Origin: Synechococcales cyanobacterium GL140_1_metabat_312 | GTDB lineage: Bacteria > Cyanobacteriota > Cyanobacteriia > Leptolyngbyales > Leptolyngbyaceae | Direction of reading: 5' to 3' | Length of the DNA stretch: 43,965 bases | NCBI GenBank assembly: GCA_025351345.1 | Contig: JANXWB010000072.1 | Span: 1 to 43,965 of the forward strand | Part shown: positions 29,971 to 36,104 of the stretch, piece by piece | How the letters are laid out: each line of letters starts with the position of its first letter | Numbering within the stretch: position 1 is the stretch's first letter | Translations under genes and position numbers: made by a program | The notes under the pieces: generated by a model | Seen by the model: only the letters and a program-made list of their open reading frames with translations | Database searches by the model: none | Told to the model about the DNA's origin: nothing

Positions 29971-30402
29971 ATGAAGATCAATCGCGAGATTCCTTGGGGT
30001 TCACTACTTCTACTGTTGAGCGGATACACCGTATTTGGCCATTTTTTAGCGGACATGAATAGTCCCCGCTTTGCCCTAACGCTCGGTGCCTTGACTGCTT
30101 TTGTGGCTGCACTGCTTTTTCTGCATCCGCTAACTGGATTAGGTAAACTCATGCAGAGACGTTTTAAATCCGACCTATTAGGGATTTTAGGTTTACTTTT
30201 CTTGGCCGGATTTATTTCAATCTTGCTCAACTGGCTCAAATGGTTTATGCCTTTTTTTATGATCTTATCCTGTGAAGCTCTAGCCCGAATTGATCTGAAA
30301 TCAGCTCGTGTTGGGGAATTGGAAACCTGCTTTTGGTTGACGTTTTCAGCTTGGTTAGGATTAGGCTTGGGCTGGATTATTGGAGTTTGGGAATTTTACT
30401 AG
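29971..30402 (+). CDS. Four-pass membrane protein, unknown
   Basis: This is a 143-residue hydrophobic protein with about four transmembrane segments (SLLLLLSGYTVFGHFLA, LGALTAFVAALLFLHPL, LLGILGLLFLAGFISILLNW, TFSAWLGLGLGWIIGVW). Basic residues occur in the loops (LMQRRFKSD). The family is not recognised. The stop TAG shares the palindrome CTAG (30399-30402) with the stop of znuB on the opposite strand, so the two genes end on top of each other. Confidence 0.65.
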   Translation: MKINREIPWGSLLLLLSGYTVFGHFLADMNSPRFALTLGALTAFVAALLFLHPLTGLGKLMQRRFKSDLLGILGLLFLAGFISILLNWLKWFMPFFMILSCEALARIDLKSARVGELETCFWLTFSAWLGLGLGWIIGVWEFY

Positions 30403-31250
30403 TGGGAATGCTTTGTTCCTTTGAAAAAAGTTGACCGAGTAGTAAACAAAAACGTCAACATAAATAAACTCGATGACACTAAAACGATCGCAGGCCCAGA
30501 CGGTAAATTTAAATAATAACTAAGATAAATTCCCATCAGACTCGACACAATTCCAATCCCACTGCCCAAAAACATCATATGATGCAATTCCTGAGTGACT
30601 AAATAGGCAGTTAATGCGGGACCAATTAGCAATGCAATTACCAATAATACGCCCACCACTTGCATACTTGTAATAATAGTCAATGTAATTCCTGCCATCA
30701 GTCCCAAGTGCAACCACTTAATCGGAAGACCAACAGCCTCTGCACCTGTCGCATCAAAAGTGTAATACAAAAGCTCTTTGTAAAATAGGTAAACTGCCCC
30801 CAAAATTACTATTGCAATAGCAGCCGTGGCATAAATATCATTCAACGTAACGGTCAGAATATCGCCAAACAAAAAGCGATCGAGATCTAACTTATTTTTT
30901 AATAACGTAATCAACGTAACGCCGATCGCAAAAAAAGTCGAAAATGTTAATGCCATTGCTGAATCAACTTTAACGCGGGACTGCGATCGTACCCAAGTTA
31001 CAAAAAATGATCCAAACATCGAAGAAACAAATGCTCCAATGGACCGATCGACCCCAAAAAATGCAGCAATTGACAATCCCGGCAACACACAATGCGCCAT
31101 CACATCGCCCATCAACGCCATCCGCTGTACGATTAAATAGGTGCCTACAACAGGACACAAAACCCCAATCATTATACTCACCCCGATCGCATTACGAATG
31201 AATTCAGATTGCAACGGTTCTATTAACATTGATATAAAAGCTAACCACAT
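30399..31250 (-). CDS. znuB: Zinc ABC transporter permease
   Basis: This 283-residue inner-membrane protein of the ABC-3 family (ZnuB/MntB) forms the channel for metal entry. It has about eight hydrophobic segments, including VSIMIGVLCPVVGTYLIVQRMALMGD at the start and AVGLPIKWLHLGLMAGITL. The MGDVMAHCVLPGLSIA segment is a family hallmark. ATG 31250 is used, with GGAG about 9 nt upstream. It follows znuC closely (19-bp gap), so the two share one transcript. Zinc rather than manganese is inferred from the Zur box upstream of znuC. Confidence 0.88.
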   Translation of the reverse strand: MWLAFISMLIEPLQSEFIRNAIGVSIMIGVLCPVVGTYLIVQRMALMGDVMAHCVLPGLSIAAFFGVDRSIGAFVSSMFGSFFVTWVRSQSRVKVDSAMALTFSTFFAIGVTLITLLKNKLDLDRFLFGDILTVTLNDIYATAAIAIVILGAVYLFYKELLYYTFDATGAEAVGLPIKWLHLGLMAGITLTIITSMQVVGVLLVIALLIGPALTAYLVTQELHHMMFLGSGIGIVSSLMGIYLSYYLNLPSGPAIVLVSSSLFMLTFLFTTRSTFFKGTKHSH

Positions 31251-31269
31251 ATTCAATCACTCCAAATCC

Positions 31270-32031
31270 TTAACAGAACAAATCATCATCCTTCCCATCG
31301 CCATGAAACGCATGGGTCCAAACTCGACCATAGGCAAGCTGAAGATTTTCGCGGGTCATCACCTCACGGGGCGTTCCCGATGCAATTAATTCACGATTCA
31401 ACAACAACAATCGATCGAGACTCGTCAAGCCTTCTGCTAAATGACTGCCCCATTCATGACTACTAATAATCAAAATTTTGCCCTCATTGCGCAACTCGGC
31501 AAACACCCGAAACAAAATATCTTCCGTCGTCGCATCAACCCCCGTAAACGGTTCATCAAATAGCAAAATCTCCGCATCCTGAGCCAACGCTCGCGCCAGA
31601 AAAACCCGTTGTTGTTGCCCACCTGACAAATTTCCAATGCGCCGATCGCGTAAATCCCAAATATTCACCCGCTTCATTGCCCGCTGAATCGCAGTATTAG
31701 TGGCCACGCTTGATCGGCGAAACCAACCCAACTGACGCGTCACCGCCAACGAAACCACCGTCTGCACCGTTGCCGGATAATCCCAGTCAATCTGCGATCG
31801 TTGCGGCACATAAGCAACTTTTTCAAGCTGTTGATGTAGCGGACAGGTGCAATAGCGAACTTGACCTCCACTAACGGGCACCAATCCCAGCAACGCCTTG
31901 ATCATTGTGCTTTTTCCAGCCCCATTCGGCCCCATGACTCCTACCATTTCTCCTGGAAAAATCTTGAAACTAACCGGGTCTAGTCCCTGACCAGATCCAT
32001 AGTTGACAGAAACTTCTTGAACTTCTAGCAT
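31270..32031 (-). CDS. znuC: Zinc ABC transporter ATPase
   Basis: This 253-residue ATPase powers the transporter. Walker A is GPNGAGKSTMIKALLGL (about 34-50), the Q-loop region is VAYVPQRSQIDW, the signature is LSGGQQQRVFLARAL, Walker B is ILLFDEPFTG and the switch His lies in ISSHEWG. It is first in the minus-strand znuCB unit and starts 12 bp from the Zur box. Confidence 0.92.
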   Translation of the reverse strand: MLEVQEVSVNYGSGQGLDPVSFKIFPGEMVGVMGPNGAGKSTMIKALLGLVPVSGGQVRYCTCPLHQQLEKVAYVPQRSQIDWDYPATVQTVVSLAVTRQLGWFRRSSVATNTAIQRAMKRVNIWDLRDRRIGNLSGGQQQRVFLARALAQDAEILLFDEPFTGVDATTEDILFRVFAELRNEGKILIISSHEWGSHLAEGLTSLDRLLLLNRELIASGTPREVMTRENLQLAYGRVWTHAFHGDGKDDDLFC

Positions 32032-32042
32032 GAGAAATTATA

Positions 32043-32057
32043 TGATAACGATTATCA
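32043..32057. promoter_or_regulatory. Zur box between znuC and znuA
   Basis: TGATAACGATTATCA is a 15-bp palindrome that matches the 7-1-7 cyanobacterial Zur/Fur-type site TGATAATNATTATCA with one mismatch. It lies between the divergent znuC and znuA starts (12 bp from znuC, 78 bp from znuA). When zinc is ample, Zur would bind and repress both sides. The site supports the zinc assignment of this transporter. Confidence 0.85.
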
Positions 32058-32135
32058 TTTTAATCGAATTCGACGACAGTGATCGCACTAAGTCGGACTT
32101 TAATTTCGCACGATTAATTATTGGCAGAGAGTTTT

Positions 32136-33140
32136 ATGAATTTCAAATATCTGAGCTTAGGTTTGTTGCTATTAGGGTTGGCAGGATGTGGCGCGACTCC
32201 CACAAATTCAGGCAATGCAGAAAAGTCGGGCAATGCGGAGACCTCAAAATCAGCAGCCAATAAACCCGTCGTGGTTGCCAGCTACAGTGTTTTATGTGAT
32301 CTCACCCAGCAAATTGCTCAAGAAACCGTTGACCTCAAGTGCCTTATGCCCGCTGGTCAAGATCCTCATACCTATCAACCGACAACAGACGATCGCAAAG
32401 CCATCGATACCAGCGCTCTTGTCCTCTATGGTGGTTATGAATTTGAAGCGCAAGTGATCAAGCTCGTTAAAGCATCCGGCAACCTAGACACTAAAGTTGC
32501 CGTCCATGAAATCGCGGTTCCTAAACCTTTAATGGGTGAACATGACCATGCTCCAGGTGAGGCGAAATCTGCAAAATCTGCTGAAAAAGAAGTCGATCCT
32601 CACGTTTGGCACAATGCAAAAAATGGAATTGCGATCGTGCAAGTGATTCAAGACAAACTTACAAAACTTGCTCCACAGAATTCTGCCCTGTATGCCAAAA
32701 ATGCAACGGCTCTGCGCGATCGGCTCACCAAACTAGATGCTTGGATTCAGACCTCAATTTCAACCATTCCTATGGCATCTAAAAAGCTTGTCACCACTCA
32801 CGATGCACTTTCTTACTATGGAGACGCTTACGCATTGCCGATTGAAGGGGCATTACAAGGCATTAGCACCGACGAAAAACCAACCGCCTCCCGAGTTAAA
32901 GCATTAGTCGATGAAATCAAGACTTCAAAAGTTCCAACTATTTTTGCTGAAGTTACGGTCAATCCTAAACTCATTGAAACTGTTGCAAAAGAAGCAAGTG
33001 TCAAACTCGCCAGCAAATCCCTATTCGCTGATGGGCTAGGAGAAGCAGGTTCGGGTGCAGAAAGTTATGAAAAAATGCTAGTCAGCAATACCACCACCAT
33101 TGTCGAAGGTCTCGGCGGAACACTTACTCCTGCACCTTAG
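32136..33140 (+). CDS. znuA: Zinc ABC transporter substrate-binding lipoprotein
   Basis: This 334-residue periplasmic protein captures the metal. The signal ends in a lipobox (LLLLGLAGC, Cys lipidated). Candidate ligands are HTYQPT, the short His-rich loop EHDHAPGE, HVWH and the downstream TTHDALSYYG. It belongs to the TroA fold. The His loop is shorter than in many ZnuA proteins, so Mn binding cannot be fully excluded. I chose ATG 32136 because GAGAG lies 7 nt upstream. Confidence 0.9.
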   Translation: MNFKYLSLGLLLLGLAGCGATPTNSGNAEKSGNAETSKSAANKPVVVASYSVLCDLTQQIAQETVDLKCLMPAGQDPHTYQPTTDDRKAIDTSALVLYGGYEFEAQVIKLVKASGNLDTKVAVHEIAVPKPLMGEHDHAPGEAKSAKSAEKEVDPHVWHNAKNGIAIVQVIQDKLTKLAPQNSALYAKNATALRDRLTKLDAWIQTSISTIPMASKKLVTTHDALSYYGDAYALPIEGALQGISTDEKPTASRVKALVDEIKTSKVPTIFAEVTVNPKLIETVAKEASVKLASKSLFADGLGEAGSGAESYEKMLVSNTTTIVEGLGGTLTPAP

Positions 33141-33979: not shown

Positions 33980-33991
33980 TTTTAAGCAGAT

Positions 33992-34028
33992 TCCTCCTCG
34001 GCGAATTTGTTGAGGAGGATTGTTTTGG
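33992..34028 (+). terminator. Terminator after rpmA
   Basis: TCCTCCTC (33992-33999) pairs with GAGGAGGA (34012-34019) around a 12-nt loop, followed by TTGTTTT. It ends the rplU-rpmA transcript before the tRNA gene. Confidence 0.75.
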
Positions 34029-34107
34029 ATTAATTATTGACTTTAGTCAAATTAGTTGAAAAGCTATCCAAAATTCATTTTGTTTGTTACTATTGGTAGA
34101 GATTCAT

Positions 34108-34189
34108 GCGGATATGGCGGAATTGGCAGACGCGCTAGGTTTAGGTTCTAGTTTCTTCGGAAGTGAAGGTTCAAGTCCTTTTATCCGCA
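34108..34189 (+). tRNA. tRNA-Leu (anticodon UAG)
   Basis: Acceptor arms GCGGATA (34108-34114) and TATCCGC (34182-34188) pair fully. The anticodon stem CTAGG/TCTAG holds a 7-nt loop with TAG at 34142-34144. A variable arm typical of class II tRNA-Leu and a T-loop GGTTCAAGTCC are present. The CCA end is not encoded. It reads CUA-type Leu codons. Confidence 0.96.
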
Positions 34190-34280
34190 TCATTCCATCA
34201 AAGAGATTCTTAATTTAGGTTAGGAATCCTTTTTAGTTTTAACGAGTTATAGTTGAATTAGCCATCTCGCTTTAATTTCC

Positions 34281-34844
34281 ATGGCCTCCAAAGCAGATTT
34301 TCAAACTCAACTTAAAGACCTATACAAAATCAATAAAAATATCAGCGACCCACTCACTCGCGATCAATGCGAAGCGATGCTCCTGTTATTGGCTGAAAAT
34401 CCAAGTGCGGTGAAAATTGTTGAAGCTTTTGCTGATAAAAACAGTGATCTCCAGAAAAATAATGCGGCATTGGGCACACGACGATCGTGGGCAGAACGAC
34501 GGTTTGAGACATTACAATTAGAATTCAATGCCTTAAAAGACCGTAAAAGCAGCACTAACTCAATCAATCCTCAGCTTGAAGCCGACCTTAAAGCCTTGAG
34601 TGTAGAAATGGATAAAATTGGGACGCAAAATAAAGCCTTAGATGAAAAAGTTAAGAAATTGAGTGCTTTGACAGATAGATTGACCGATGCAAATGACCAG
34701 TTGAAAAAAGAGAATAAGGCACTTAAAAATATAGTTGACGCCATTCGTTTACGGCTCGCCAAGGATGTGAAACAACTGATGAACTACGACGATAGCGAAA
34801 TTCGTAAAGCGCTTGTAAAAGTTTTTAAGTCTACTTTGGGTTAA
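34281..34844 (+). CDS. Coiled-coil protein, first gene of the tRNA-adjacent cassette
   Basis: This 187-residue protein has an N-terminal helical part (QLKDLYKINKNISDPLTRDQ, LLLLAENPSAVKIVEAFADK) and a long coiled coil (about 95-150: LEADLKALSVEMDKIGTQNK, LTDRLTDANDQLKKENKALK). It ends with a basic helical tail (MNYDDSEIRKALVKVFKSTLG). No enzyme motif is seen. It begins 91 bp after the tRNA gene and its stop is only 3 bp before the next start, so the cassette is co-translated. Coiled coils of this sort suggest it is a partner or sensor that oligomerises. The role is unknown. Confidence 0.75.
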   Translation: MASKADFQTQLKDLYKINKNISDPLTRDQCEAMLLLLAENPSAVKIVEAFADKNSDLQKNNAALGTRRSWAERRFETLQLEFNALKDRKSSTNSINPQLEADLKALSVEMDKIGTQNKALDEKVKKLSALTDRLTDANDQLKKENKALKNIVDAIRLRLAKDVKQLMNYDDSEIRKALVKVFKSTLG

Positions 34845-34847
34845 GTC

Positions 34848-35252
34848 ATGAGTCAGAAAAAAATAAATCAAAAAAATAAATCAAAATCACTTCCCAGAAC
34901 CCATCAAAAATTCACCTACACCCAATTACAAGCCTTTAATAAACAATGCCGATCGCAACTTCGGCCCGACGATCGGCAATGGCTCAAAGAAAATGGGTAT
35001 AAGAATGTCGGTTGGGATGGTGCGATCGCACTTTATGAAAAAATAATTGATTACAAGGCAAAATATGATTTAGAAGAGGAAAGTTTAGAAGATTTATTTC
35101 TGGAAGCCGATCGGATTGGGAACAAATACCAAACTTCAGAGGAAATCGAAGCATTTCAAGCCGCTCTTGCCTTTGAAGTGAATGCCATAGGCGATTTGAT
35201 TGATCAACAATTCCCTGATACTACAACTGAATTTATTGATTATGGAACCTAA
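34848..35252 (+). CDS. Unknown acidic protein, second gene of the cassette
   Basis: This 134-residue protein has a very basic N-terminal 20 residues and a core with FTYTQLQAFNKQCRSQL, DDRQWLKENGYKNVGWDG and ALYEKIIDYKAKYDL. The strongly acidic second half carries SLEDLFLEADRIGNKYQTSE (about 79-98). That segment resembles the N-terminus of the HNH protein next door (TLKELFQLADTLGNRRY), giving a shared L-[ED]-[DE/EL]-LF-x2-AD-x2-GN pattern. The 3' end overlaps the next gene by 11 bp. The family is not recognised. It may bind the nuclease or act as its inhibitor. Confidence 0.7.
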   Translation: MSQKKINQKNKSKSLPRTHQKFTYTQLQAFNKQCRSQLRPDDRQWLKENGYKNVGWDGAIALYEKIIDYKAKYDLEEESLEDLFLEADRIGNKYQTSEEIEAFQAALAFEVNAIGDLIDQQFPDTTTEFIDYGT

Positions 35253-35724
35253 CCCCAACGACGAAAAAACCTTAAAGGAACTGTTTCAACTGGCCGATAC
35301 ACTCGGGAATCGCCGATACAACAGACTGACATCGCAAGATTTTGACGATTATCGTAAATTTGACTATTGGCGATATGTTAACGGTCAGGGAGAATGCGGC
35401 ACAACCTTGGAAAGTAAGGCATGGGTCAACGATCATTCTGACCGCCACTGCCCCCTCTGTGAACAATTGTTCTCCCAGCACGGCGGTAAAAGTATTGATC
35501 ATAAACTTCCTCGATCGCAATATCCATGGCTTTCTATGGAATTCGAGAATCTATGGGTAATTTGTCGCGATTGCAATATTGAAAAAGCTGAAATGCACTG
35601 GTATCGCTACGAACAACATGTCTTATTAACCTATCCCGATCGCTATGAAAATGCCCGCCATGCCCGTCCGATCGCCTTGCTCAGATCACTCGCTAACGCC
35701 CTTATTAATAAATCCGAGACCTAG
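35242..35724 (+). CDS. HNH endonuclease, third gene of the cassette
   Basis: This 160-residue protein contains an HNH (beta-beta-alpha-metal) nuclease core: Cys pair CPLC (70-73), DH (86-87, SIDHKLPRSQ), Asn 103 (FENLWV), Cys pair CRDC (108-111) and N112/K115. The residues needed for metal binding and catalysis are present, so it should be an active nuclease on DNA. The first 40 residues hold the shared ELF-x2-AD-x2-GN motif. ATG 35242 overlaps the previous stop by 11 bp; a longer in-frame start at 35200 adds an unconvincing hydrophobic stretch. HNH proteins occur in defence, homing and phage packaging systems; the role here is open. Confidence 0.85.
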   Translation: MEPNPNDEKTLKELFQLADTLGNRRYNRLTSQDFDDYRKFDYWRYVNGQGECGTTLESKAWVNDHSDRHCPLCEQLFSQHGGKSIDHKLPRSQYPWLSMEFENLWVICRDCNIEKAEMHWYRYEQHVLLTYPDRYENARHARPIALLRSLANALINKSET

Positions 35725-35864
35725 CGTAATGTCCCAAGACCTCTTGGCTTCAGCGCACTAAATGTGATGCCCCTTCAATTATGAGTAAATAATGCCTACA
35801 GAATGTCCTTCTGTATCTGTACCATTAGGATAGTTAACTTTGAATCCTCTCTTAGGGTGATGTT

Positions 35865-36104
35865 ATGCCTCCTCGTTGGTCTCGTGTTCCAACCCGCAAC
35901 GATCCAGATTTTCGTAGGTTAGACGATCGGATGAGCTTTGCGACCCATGTGGCGGCGTTCACAGCGTTTAATTCCGGCATCTGGTTTTTCAAACTCCTGA
36001 AGCATTCAGATTCAACCTGGCCGCTTTGGGTAACGGGTCTTTGGGCGGCTGGATTTTTAGGCCATGGGATTTATGTATTTGTCATTGCAAAATATGAGGA
36101 TTAA
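35865..36104 (+). CDS. 2TM-domain small membrane protein
   Basis: This 79-residue protein has an N-terminal polar part (RVPTRNDPDFRRLDDRMSF) and two hydrophobic segments (HVAAFTAFNSGIWFFKLL and WPLWVTGLWAAGFLGHGIYVFVI), which fits the 2TM domain family found in cyanobacteria. The function is unknown. It is followed 18 bp later by the DUF3181 gene, and the two may be co-transcribed. Confidence 0.75.
   Translation: MPPRWSRVPTRNDPDFRRLDDRMSFATHVAAFTAFNSGIWFFKLLKHSDSTWPLWVTGLWAAGFLGHGIYVFVIAKYED

Follow-up and report, generated by a model that had tools for sequence, protein, structure and literature searches.

The window, i.e., the entire stretch of 43,965 nucleotides that was analysed (contig JANXWB010000072.1 of Synechococcales cyanobacterium GL140_1_metabat_312), carries three tightly packed genes, here called P1, P2, and HNH, behind a tRNA-Leu(UAG) gene (Table 1). 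A first-pass annotation, made from the sequence alone, had described this packing as a 3-bp gap followed by an 11-bp overlap, and both were found, the gap at 34845-34847 and the overlap at 35242-35252; the tRNA start was moved from 34108 to 34107. The HNH reading frame ends at 35724 and codes for 160 amino acids from the ATG at 35242, or for 174 from an upstream TTG at 35200. No integrase is encoded within the three-gene unit (open reading frames, Pfam, NCBIfam). The tRNA adjoins the cassette and is probably not part of the system. On the 5' side, the tRNA and cassette are bordered by rpmA (L27 by Pfam), upstream of which lies a gene that we take to be rplU; a 2TM-domain gene and a DUF3181 gene (both Pfam) follow on the 3' side, with a release-factor gene, presumably prfB, downstream. 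Genes resembling those for a zinc-uptake ABC transporter (permease, ATPase, and binding protein) were seen by eye upstream of rplU, at 30399-33140.

Table 1. Positions of the tRNA gene, the three cassette genes, and their segments in the window.
Feature	Position	Strand	Basis or remark
tRNA-Leu(UAG)	34107..34191	+	ARAGORN; 3' end unrepeated in window
P1, coiled-coil protein, 187 aa, gene 1 of cassette (type I, N-terminal module A)	34281..34844	+	
P1 N-terminal module A (INKNIS type)	34281..34505	+	Alignment of relatives
P1 C-terminal conserved region	34659..34841	+	Alignment; retained with module A or B
P2, middle protein, 134 aa, gene 2	34848..35252	+	Open reading frame; no family
P2 segment, residues 74-104, contains LEDLFLEADRIGNKY	35067..35159	+	Matches HNH N terminus
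HNH nuclease (predicted), 160 aa from ATG, gene 3	35242..35724	+	Open reading frame; Pfam HNH
HNH N-terminal segment, residues 5-38, common to P2; docking element proposed	35254..35355	+	
HNH catalytic and zinc core: CxxC, DH, N, CxxCN..K	35449..35586	+	Pfam HNH, residues 70-115

The third protein clears the gathering cut-off of Pfam HNH (PF01844; 23.4 bits versus 21.4). All 20 aligned relatives, the window protein among them, share the residues C70, C73, D86, H87, N103, C108, C111, N112, and K115, which agrees with the earlier description of an HNH enzyme with complete catalytic residues. Pfam and NCBIfam revealed no further recognition domain in the 160-residue protein. P1, annotated as a coiled-coil protein, matched generic coiled-coil models only, all of them below cut-offs (Pfam, NCBIfam); its PADLOC matches were limited to coiled-coil parts of LmuB, DruC, and JetC (E 4.5e-4 at best). 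P2, listed before as a protein of no recognised kind, remained so, with no Pfam or NCBIfam match at E ≤ 1 and no family match in PADLOC. No ATPase domain was found in P1 or P2 with Pfam, NCBIfam, or PADLOC.

AlphaFold models were obtained for HNH (mean pLDDT 75, pTM 0.70) and for P2 (pLDDT 76, pTM 0.43), the latter being almost wholly helical. The best structural alignment of the HNH model was with the HNH domain of Nme1Cas9 (Z 5.8, rmsd 3.6, 88 residues), followed at Z of about 4 by further HNH nucleases, PtuB and McrA among them; Cap5 and PtuB were among the Foldseek matches. These values are middling and point to the common nuclease core only. The P2 model gave no useful structural match (best Z 3.7, at a model pTM of 0.43), and its search argues neither for a new fold nor for a known one. 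Among PDB sequences, none matched HNH at E 0.01, and P2 returned two chance-level rows.

The cassette was compared with known systems using, among other libraries, the 2023 version of PADLOC-DB. Septu (PtuAB) and retron-Septu (PtuA and PtuB with retron Ec78/Eco7) likewise place an HNH effector beside partner genes. However, Septu has a PtuA-type ATPase, whereas the cassette is without one, P1 being a coiled coil, P2 belonging to no family, and the flanks holding rpmA and the 2TM and DUF3181 genes; PtuB1 models match only the HNH core (best 1e-10, residues 65-136), and the structural likeness to PtuB chains stays at the Z value given above. The same genome has, on contig C57 (L299:1998-4213), a separate, Septu-like ATPase gene (AAA_21/AAA_15) beside a gene for a 280-residue HNH protein. 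The best PADLOC match of the HNH core is to the candidate system PDC-M01B (6e-13, residues 64-139), but the models of that system are longer, the match is limited to the core, and P1 and P2 are not covered. The likeness to the HNH domains of Cas9, CBASS Cap5, and McrA is weak and concerns the common nuclease core, and the cassette HNH shows none of the added recognition domains. The catalytic core is also that of HNH homing endonucleases and phage HNH proteins (PHROGs HNH families); unlike these, the cassette HNH is the third gene of a fixed operon, and two pattern scans of the viral_contigs collection for type I HNH brought up no relative. Apart from its HNH core, the cassette could be placed in no family of the libraries Pfam, NCBIfam, PADLOC-DB 2023, and PHROGs, and for these the earlier statement that it matched no known system stands. 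The portions of the literature covered by our search, PMC6293099 included, held no description of the cassette, which is not proof that it is unpublished.

Linkage of the three genes was followed in 97 genomes, that of the window included, at an HNH threshold of E ≤ 1e-3. HNH matches were observed in 27 of these genomes and were strong in 20 (E 8e-61 or better, the next match being at 1e-7); P2 was matched in 21 and P1 in 22 of the 97. Of the 20 strongly matched genomes, 19 have P1-P2-HNH in a row and on one strand. G024 is the exception, with HNH, a truncated P2, and no P1; G025 has a 64-codon P1 stub and no HNH match. The second survey, a pattern scan of one genome per species in 84,980 species, started from two peptide patterns and therefore misses relatives without them; its loci overlap with genomes of the 97-genome set. 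It yielded 87 HNH relatives, and all of the best 80 of the 87, which were retained, carry cyanobacterial names. Complete, ordered P1-P2-HNH cassettes of the window's type (type I; types II-IV are described below) were found at 74 of these best 80 of 87 loci. Three others (L130, L188, and L190) are cut by contig ends, and three (L135, L171, and L179) have lost P1 and, partly or wholly, P2; the HNH of L171 also lacks a zinc cysteine, and those of L135 and L179 look intact. In the sets examined, the genes therefore do not occur separately without linkage, since every cassette short of a partner was either a remnant or cut by a contig end.

Mantel correlations of pairwise distances over 73 rows were 0.42 between the P1 C terminus and P2, 0.41 between the P1 C terminus and HNH, and 0.74 between P2 and HNH (0/1000 permutations each). 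Pairwise dN/dS between the window genome and two congeners was 0.063-0.203 for P1, 0.145-0.205 for P2, and 0.088-0.091 for HNH; all three genes are under purifying selection within the genus, as judged from three genomes. With within-genus dN/dS of 0.06-0.21 and conservation as a unit, the trio is more than a chance neighbourhood. We conclude that the three genes form one evolutionary unit.

This unit is patchily distributed, moves horizontally, is found on mobile elements, and is not core; its neighbours vary between genera, so that a fixed synteny in all cyanobacteria does not apply. One genus, in which eight genomes were inspected at the thiG site, illustrates the pattern. The cassette is present there in G034 and G038 and as a remnant in G024, and the site without the cassette is seen in the congeners G009, G036, and G041, where 93-97 bp separate thiG from the small gene that elsewhere comes after the cassette. 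G031 and G040 hold a different cassette copy at another place, and the expected neighbours were not found within about 5 kb behind their thiG. The junctions compared at this one site showed neither a target-site duplication nor a terminal repeat. Within the genus of the window, the upstream genes and the tRNA are retained in G003, which gave no HNH match and whose downstream genes are different. A quick tree of P2 and HNH from 73 rows (L165 and L173 having been dropped beforehand) requires five changes for Nostocales, and an AU test of 24 rows rejected a single Nostocales clade (p = 0.003), the group being taxonomic but the tree having been seen when the test was chosen. Acaryochloris sp. 'Moss Beach' carries one type I copy on its plasmid pMB01, where transposase genes and a gene for conjugation lie no more than 10 kb away.

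The suggestion that the tRNA end served as a landing site did not survive. A tRNA gene lies within 1 kb of 6 of the 74 complete type I loci, i.e., L112 and L113 (own genus), L117 (Val), L134 (Arg), L176 (Pro), and L187 (Phe), a count somewhat above a background of about two that was guessed by hand and not computed. The link to tRNA-Leu was seen only in the window's own genus, and no tRNA was found in 13 type II and III loci of about 3.2 kb each. The window contains no second copy of the 21-base tRNA 3' end at up to three mismatches, and a repeat search of 33980-35900 detected no flanking direct repeat. We rejected a tRNA-integrated island on these grounds, together with the missing integrase, and conclude that the tRNA is incidental to the cassette.

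Signs of movement between lineages, presence or absence at a defined site, the HNH domain itself, and the lack of an integrase among the three genes would all suit a selfish element, in which HNH, as a homing or nicking endonuclease, would propagate the operon that encodes it and P1 and P2 would be accessory. Against this homing option, which we hold to be quite improbable, stand the neighbours that differ by genus, the intergenic position with no conserved insertion site across lineages, and the junctions of the one compared site, at which neither duplication nor terminal repeat was seen; a fixed three-gene set whose modules are exchanged is, moreover, unexpected for a homing gene.

Exchange of modules is seen at the N terminus of P1. 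Among 75 rows (74 loci and the window), assigned by motif, 46 have module A, 27 have module B (WTKADAxRALE...RQRLQAAQK), and two, L165 and L173, could not be assigned; module B thus replaces A in 27 of 73 typable rows. At least seven module changes occur on the tree of P2 and HNH, these lying on weak branches, and strongly supported branches force one. Module B is homologous in types I and IV (HHalign 99.7, E 4.7e-26, 86 columns).

A second feature of the cassette is a segment common to the middle protein and the nuclease. The type I match is between residues 74-104 of P2 and 5-38 of HNH (HHalign 93.8, E 1.7e-7); the segment outscores 1000 of 1000 shuffles (permutation 0/1000) and ranks first among 14,520 window pairs, scoring 47 against 18.5 for the next unrelated pair. 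Type II proteins P2 and HNH have a common C-terminal tail instead (…ALxRYxxL; 10 cassettes, 0/2000 shuffles), in a test where L210 alone stood for the near-identical L210-L213 and, for L206 and L210, the tail of HNH was trimmed at the motif before scoring. A similar ending was seen by eye in both type III proteins, and the C terminus of the type IV middle protein is weakly like the HNH N terminus (E 5e-4, probability 31; permutation 14/1000, 7 cassettes). These common segments were picked after having been noticed. As read from the sequences, they probably represent a docking element, acting on P1 or between the two proteins themselves.

Types II-IV were sought in cyanobacterial genomes and in plasmid, phage, and viral collections, so that nothing follows as to their absence from other phyla. 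The P2 profile matched 22 of 386 cyanobacterial genomes, and a mixed P2 profile matched the identical 22. Eleven had strong, almost full-length type I P2 matches; weak matches, chiefly to the N-terminal part, came from the remaining eleven and, in addition, from one of the genomes with a strong match. Thirteen of the 15 weak-match loci are three-gene cassettes of the same order with divergent partners, classed as type II (L206-L215 and L217) or type III (L203 and L204). The remaining two, L205 and L216 (G231), have a P2-like reading frame without recognised P1 or HNH partners and are either decayed copies or another use of the domain. Two types coexist in G165 (I and II) and in G225 (II and III). 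Types I-III have in common the N-terminal part of P2 (Y...N...L...GYxN..W), and a joint alignment of 17 of their P2 proteins contains seven invariant columns. The HNH cores of types I and II are related (HHalign 97.4, E 9.8e-12), and those of type III are without the zinc cysteines, L204 also being without the aspartate of the DH pair. No profile homology was detectable between type I and type II P1 (probability 3.4), and what unites the family is therefore P2, HNH, module B, and gene order.

Type IV was recognised through weak HNH matches of the 97-genome search (L296, L297, L298, and L301). Its plan consists of a first protein with module B, a different middle protein (TRKQLxGxG...), and HNH as the third. 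The middle protein matched 9 of 386 genomes, which added L305, L307, and L308 (L306 being L301). Variants were also seen: the first protein of L303 is a coiled coil with a zinc-ribbon-like end below the Pfam cut-off, in L309 a type IV-like middle protein is combined with an HNH resembling type I (37% over 76 residues, E 1e-15, in a single comparison), and the HNH gene comes first in L310 and L311. L312 and L313 gave weak middle-protein matches (E 4e-4 and 1e-3), with no recognised cassette. We conclude that the window cassette is a type I member of a modular, three-gene HNH cassette family of cyanobacteria.

Several loci showed additional features. L295:1775-3025 (G018) looks like a further variant, with a short P1-like reading frame, a P2-like protein, and an HNH reaching the contig end. 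A pair directly behind the type IV-like cassette of L309 (L309:83-871) resembles, by motif, an MNT nucleotidyltransferase with its partner. Inspection by eye showed a fragment like a DNA methyltransferase and a recombinase-like reading frame near the HNH-first cassettes (L310:2951-3289 and L311:2-1039), and placed the type IV cassette of L308:337-3109 amid a repressor-like gene and other phage-like reading frames. Other weak HNH matches, in G000:C57, G002, G008, and G095, were set aside by eye as the Septu-like pair, other HNH genes, and a repeat array; at the last (L302, G095), where the HNH match is weak, a repeated peptide-like translation suggests an array of the CRISPR kind.

Plasmid records carry one type I, four type II, and one type IV copy, all six being cyanobacterial; type I HNH also matched four non-cyanobacterial plasmid records, weakly and in the core only. 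On pEu2, HsdS, HsdR, and a SprT-family gene precede the type II cassette, and the L303 variant adjoins HsdM (Pfam), which places these two copies one gene away from, or directly beside, genes of type I restriction. A VapC gene lies 0.5 kb from the type II copy on the conjugative plasmid pREC4, and a BrnT gene 2.2 kb from that on pGM3709_01. These annotated toxin genes, with plasmid carriage, small size, and overlapping genes, would agree with a toxin-antitoxin or addiction unit, another of the first-pass options, in which HNH is the toxin and P1/P2 the antitoxin. HNH reading frames with intact cores persist where P1 has been lost (L135, L179, and G024/L077); HNH alone is therefore probably not lethal, and a simple toxin-antitoxin unit is disfavoured. 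Given also that the unit has three genes and that congeners lack it at the same site, we consider this explanation very unlikely.

To sample chromosomal neighbourhoods, 34 genes bordering 16 chromosomal type I cassettes or the one in the window were picked by hand. At E ≤ 1e-10 they gave matches to five PADLOC models, with one protein for each, and the Pfam families (25 of 49 listed) include ThiG, ribosomal L27, metabolic and transport proteins, and one ResIII. Since the 34 genes are mostly ordinary and had no control set, defence-island enrichment is not claimed. One flanking gene, not named in the output, matched PADLOC PDC-S28 very strongly; it is probably that of the Hsp90-like protein beside a type I cassette at L064:10957-13095.

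Such ordinary surroundings would suit an accessory of host DNA metabolism (repair, recombination, competence, or replication) that is ancient in cyanobacteria and has frequently been lost, with HNH processing a DNA structure that P1 and P2 bring to it. Purifying selection, a single type I P2 match in each of the 11 type I genomes, and presence or absence at one site within a genus also fit this. Its difficulties are the plasmid copies, the swapped N-terminal modules, the conflict with taxonomy in the AU test, the two types found together in G165 and in G225, and the two cases of nearby restriction genes; a host accessory is, in our estimate, distinctly unlikely.

Viral carriage of the whole cassette was not supported. 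Pattern scans of viral_contigs (type I HNH twice, type II P2, and type II HNH) found no relative; GenBank phages gave no match to type I P2, type II P1, or type IV P1, and three weak records, matching the HNH core, for type I HNH. The C-terminal domain of type II P2 was, in turn, found in nine GenBank records representing six distinct Nodularia phages, with 40% identity over 62 residues (E 2e-9). In the one phage record inspected, the domain is part of gp012, a protein of 469 amino acids (L276:4173-5582) encoded between the large terminase and portal genes, in which no N-terminal P2 part, no HNH core, and no PHROGs match were seen. A profile of the phage domain, run against the 386 genomes, clearly matched only the type II P2 proteins of 11 genomes, with two further matches at E 3e-4 and 4e-4. 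The gp012 domain may be a decoy; a host partner in common with the cassette protein is another possibility.

Defence, the remaining option of the first-pass annotation, is our best reading: the sequences suggest, with a probability that we put a little above even, that the cassette is a three-component nuclease-effector system directed against phages, plasmids, or other foreign DNA. Linkage, patchiness, the rejection of a single Nostocales clade, plasmid carriage, divergent cassettes built on the same plan, the sharing of module B, the segment common to middle protein and HNH, restriction genes near two copies, and the likeness of the HNH core to PDC-M01B and PtuB1 models and of its predicted structure to nuclease HNH domains argue for it. 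The location of chromosomal type I copies mostly amid ordinary genes argues against it, as do the dissimilar P1 proteins of types I and II, the gene order of L310 and L311, and the HNH residues lost in L204. P1 would oligomerise through its coiled coil and recognise the trigger by its exchangeable N-terminal module, A or B. P2 would serve as an adaptor, with its N-terminal part as the constant element of types I-III, and HNH would be the effector that nicks or cuts DNA when recruited or licensed. P2 and HNH would dock, onto P1 or each other, by the same type-specific segment, and because of this the nuclease activity is proposed to depend on the assembled complex. We infer complex formation, the direction of signalling, DNA cleavage, and the role in defence; sensing and docking, too, are what we infer, since P1 and P2 are without known domains.

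A broader form of the defence reading, which we regard as unlikely, would see in types I-IV a combinatorial immune family, known up to now from cyanobacteria alone, with swappable sensor modules and adaptor, an HNH effector, a type-matched docking code, and a phage decoy. The matching docking code would keep parallel cassettes in one cell apart, and the Nodularia phage protein with its adaptor docking domain would be a decoy that jams the system.

If the defence reading is true, many cyanobacterial lineages possess a small nuclease system that is missing, except for its HNH core, from the family libraries searched. With three genes and about 1.5 kb, it could easily be transferred to laboratory strains for tests. 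Swapping the N-terminal module would reveal which part determines specificity, and the segment common to adaptor and nuclease offers a direct, mutable prediction of how the nuclease is restrained. The domain in Nodularia phages would, in addition, make phage counter-defence testable.
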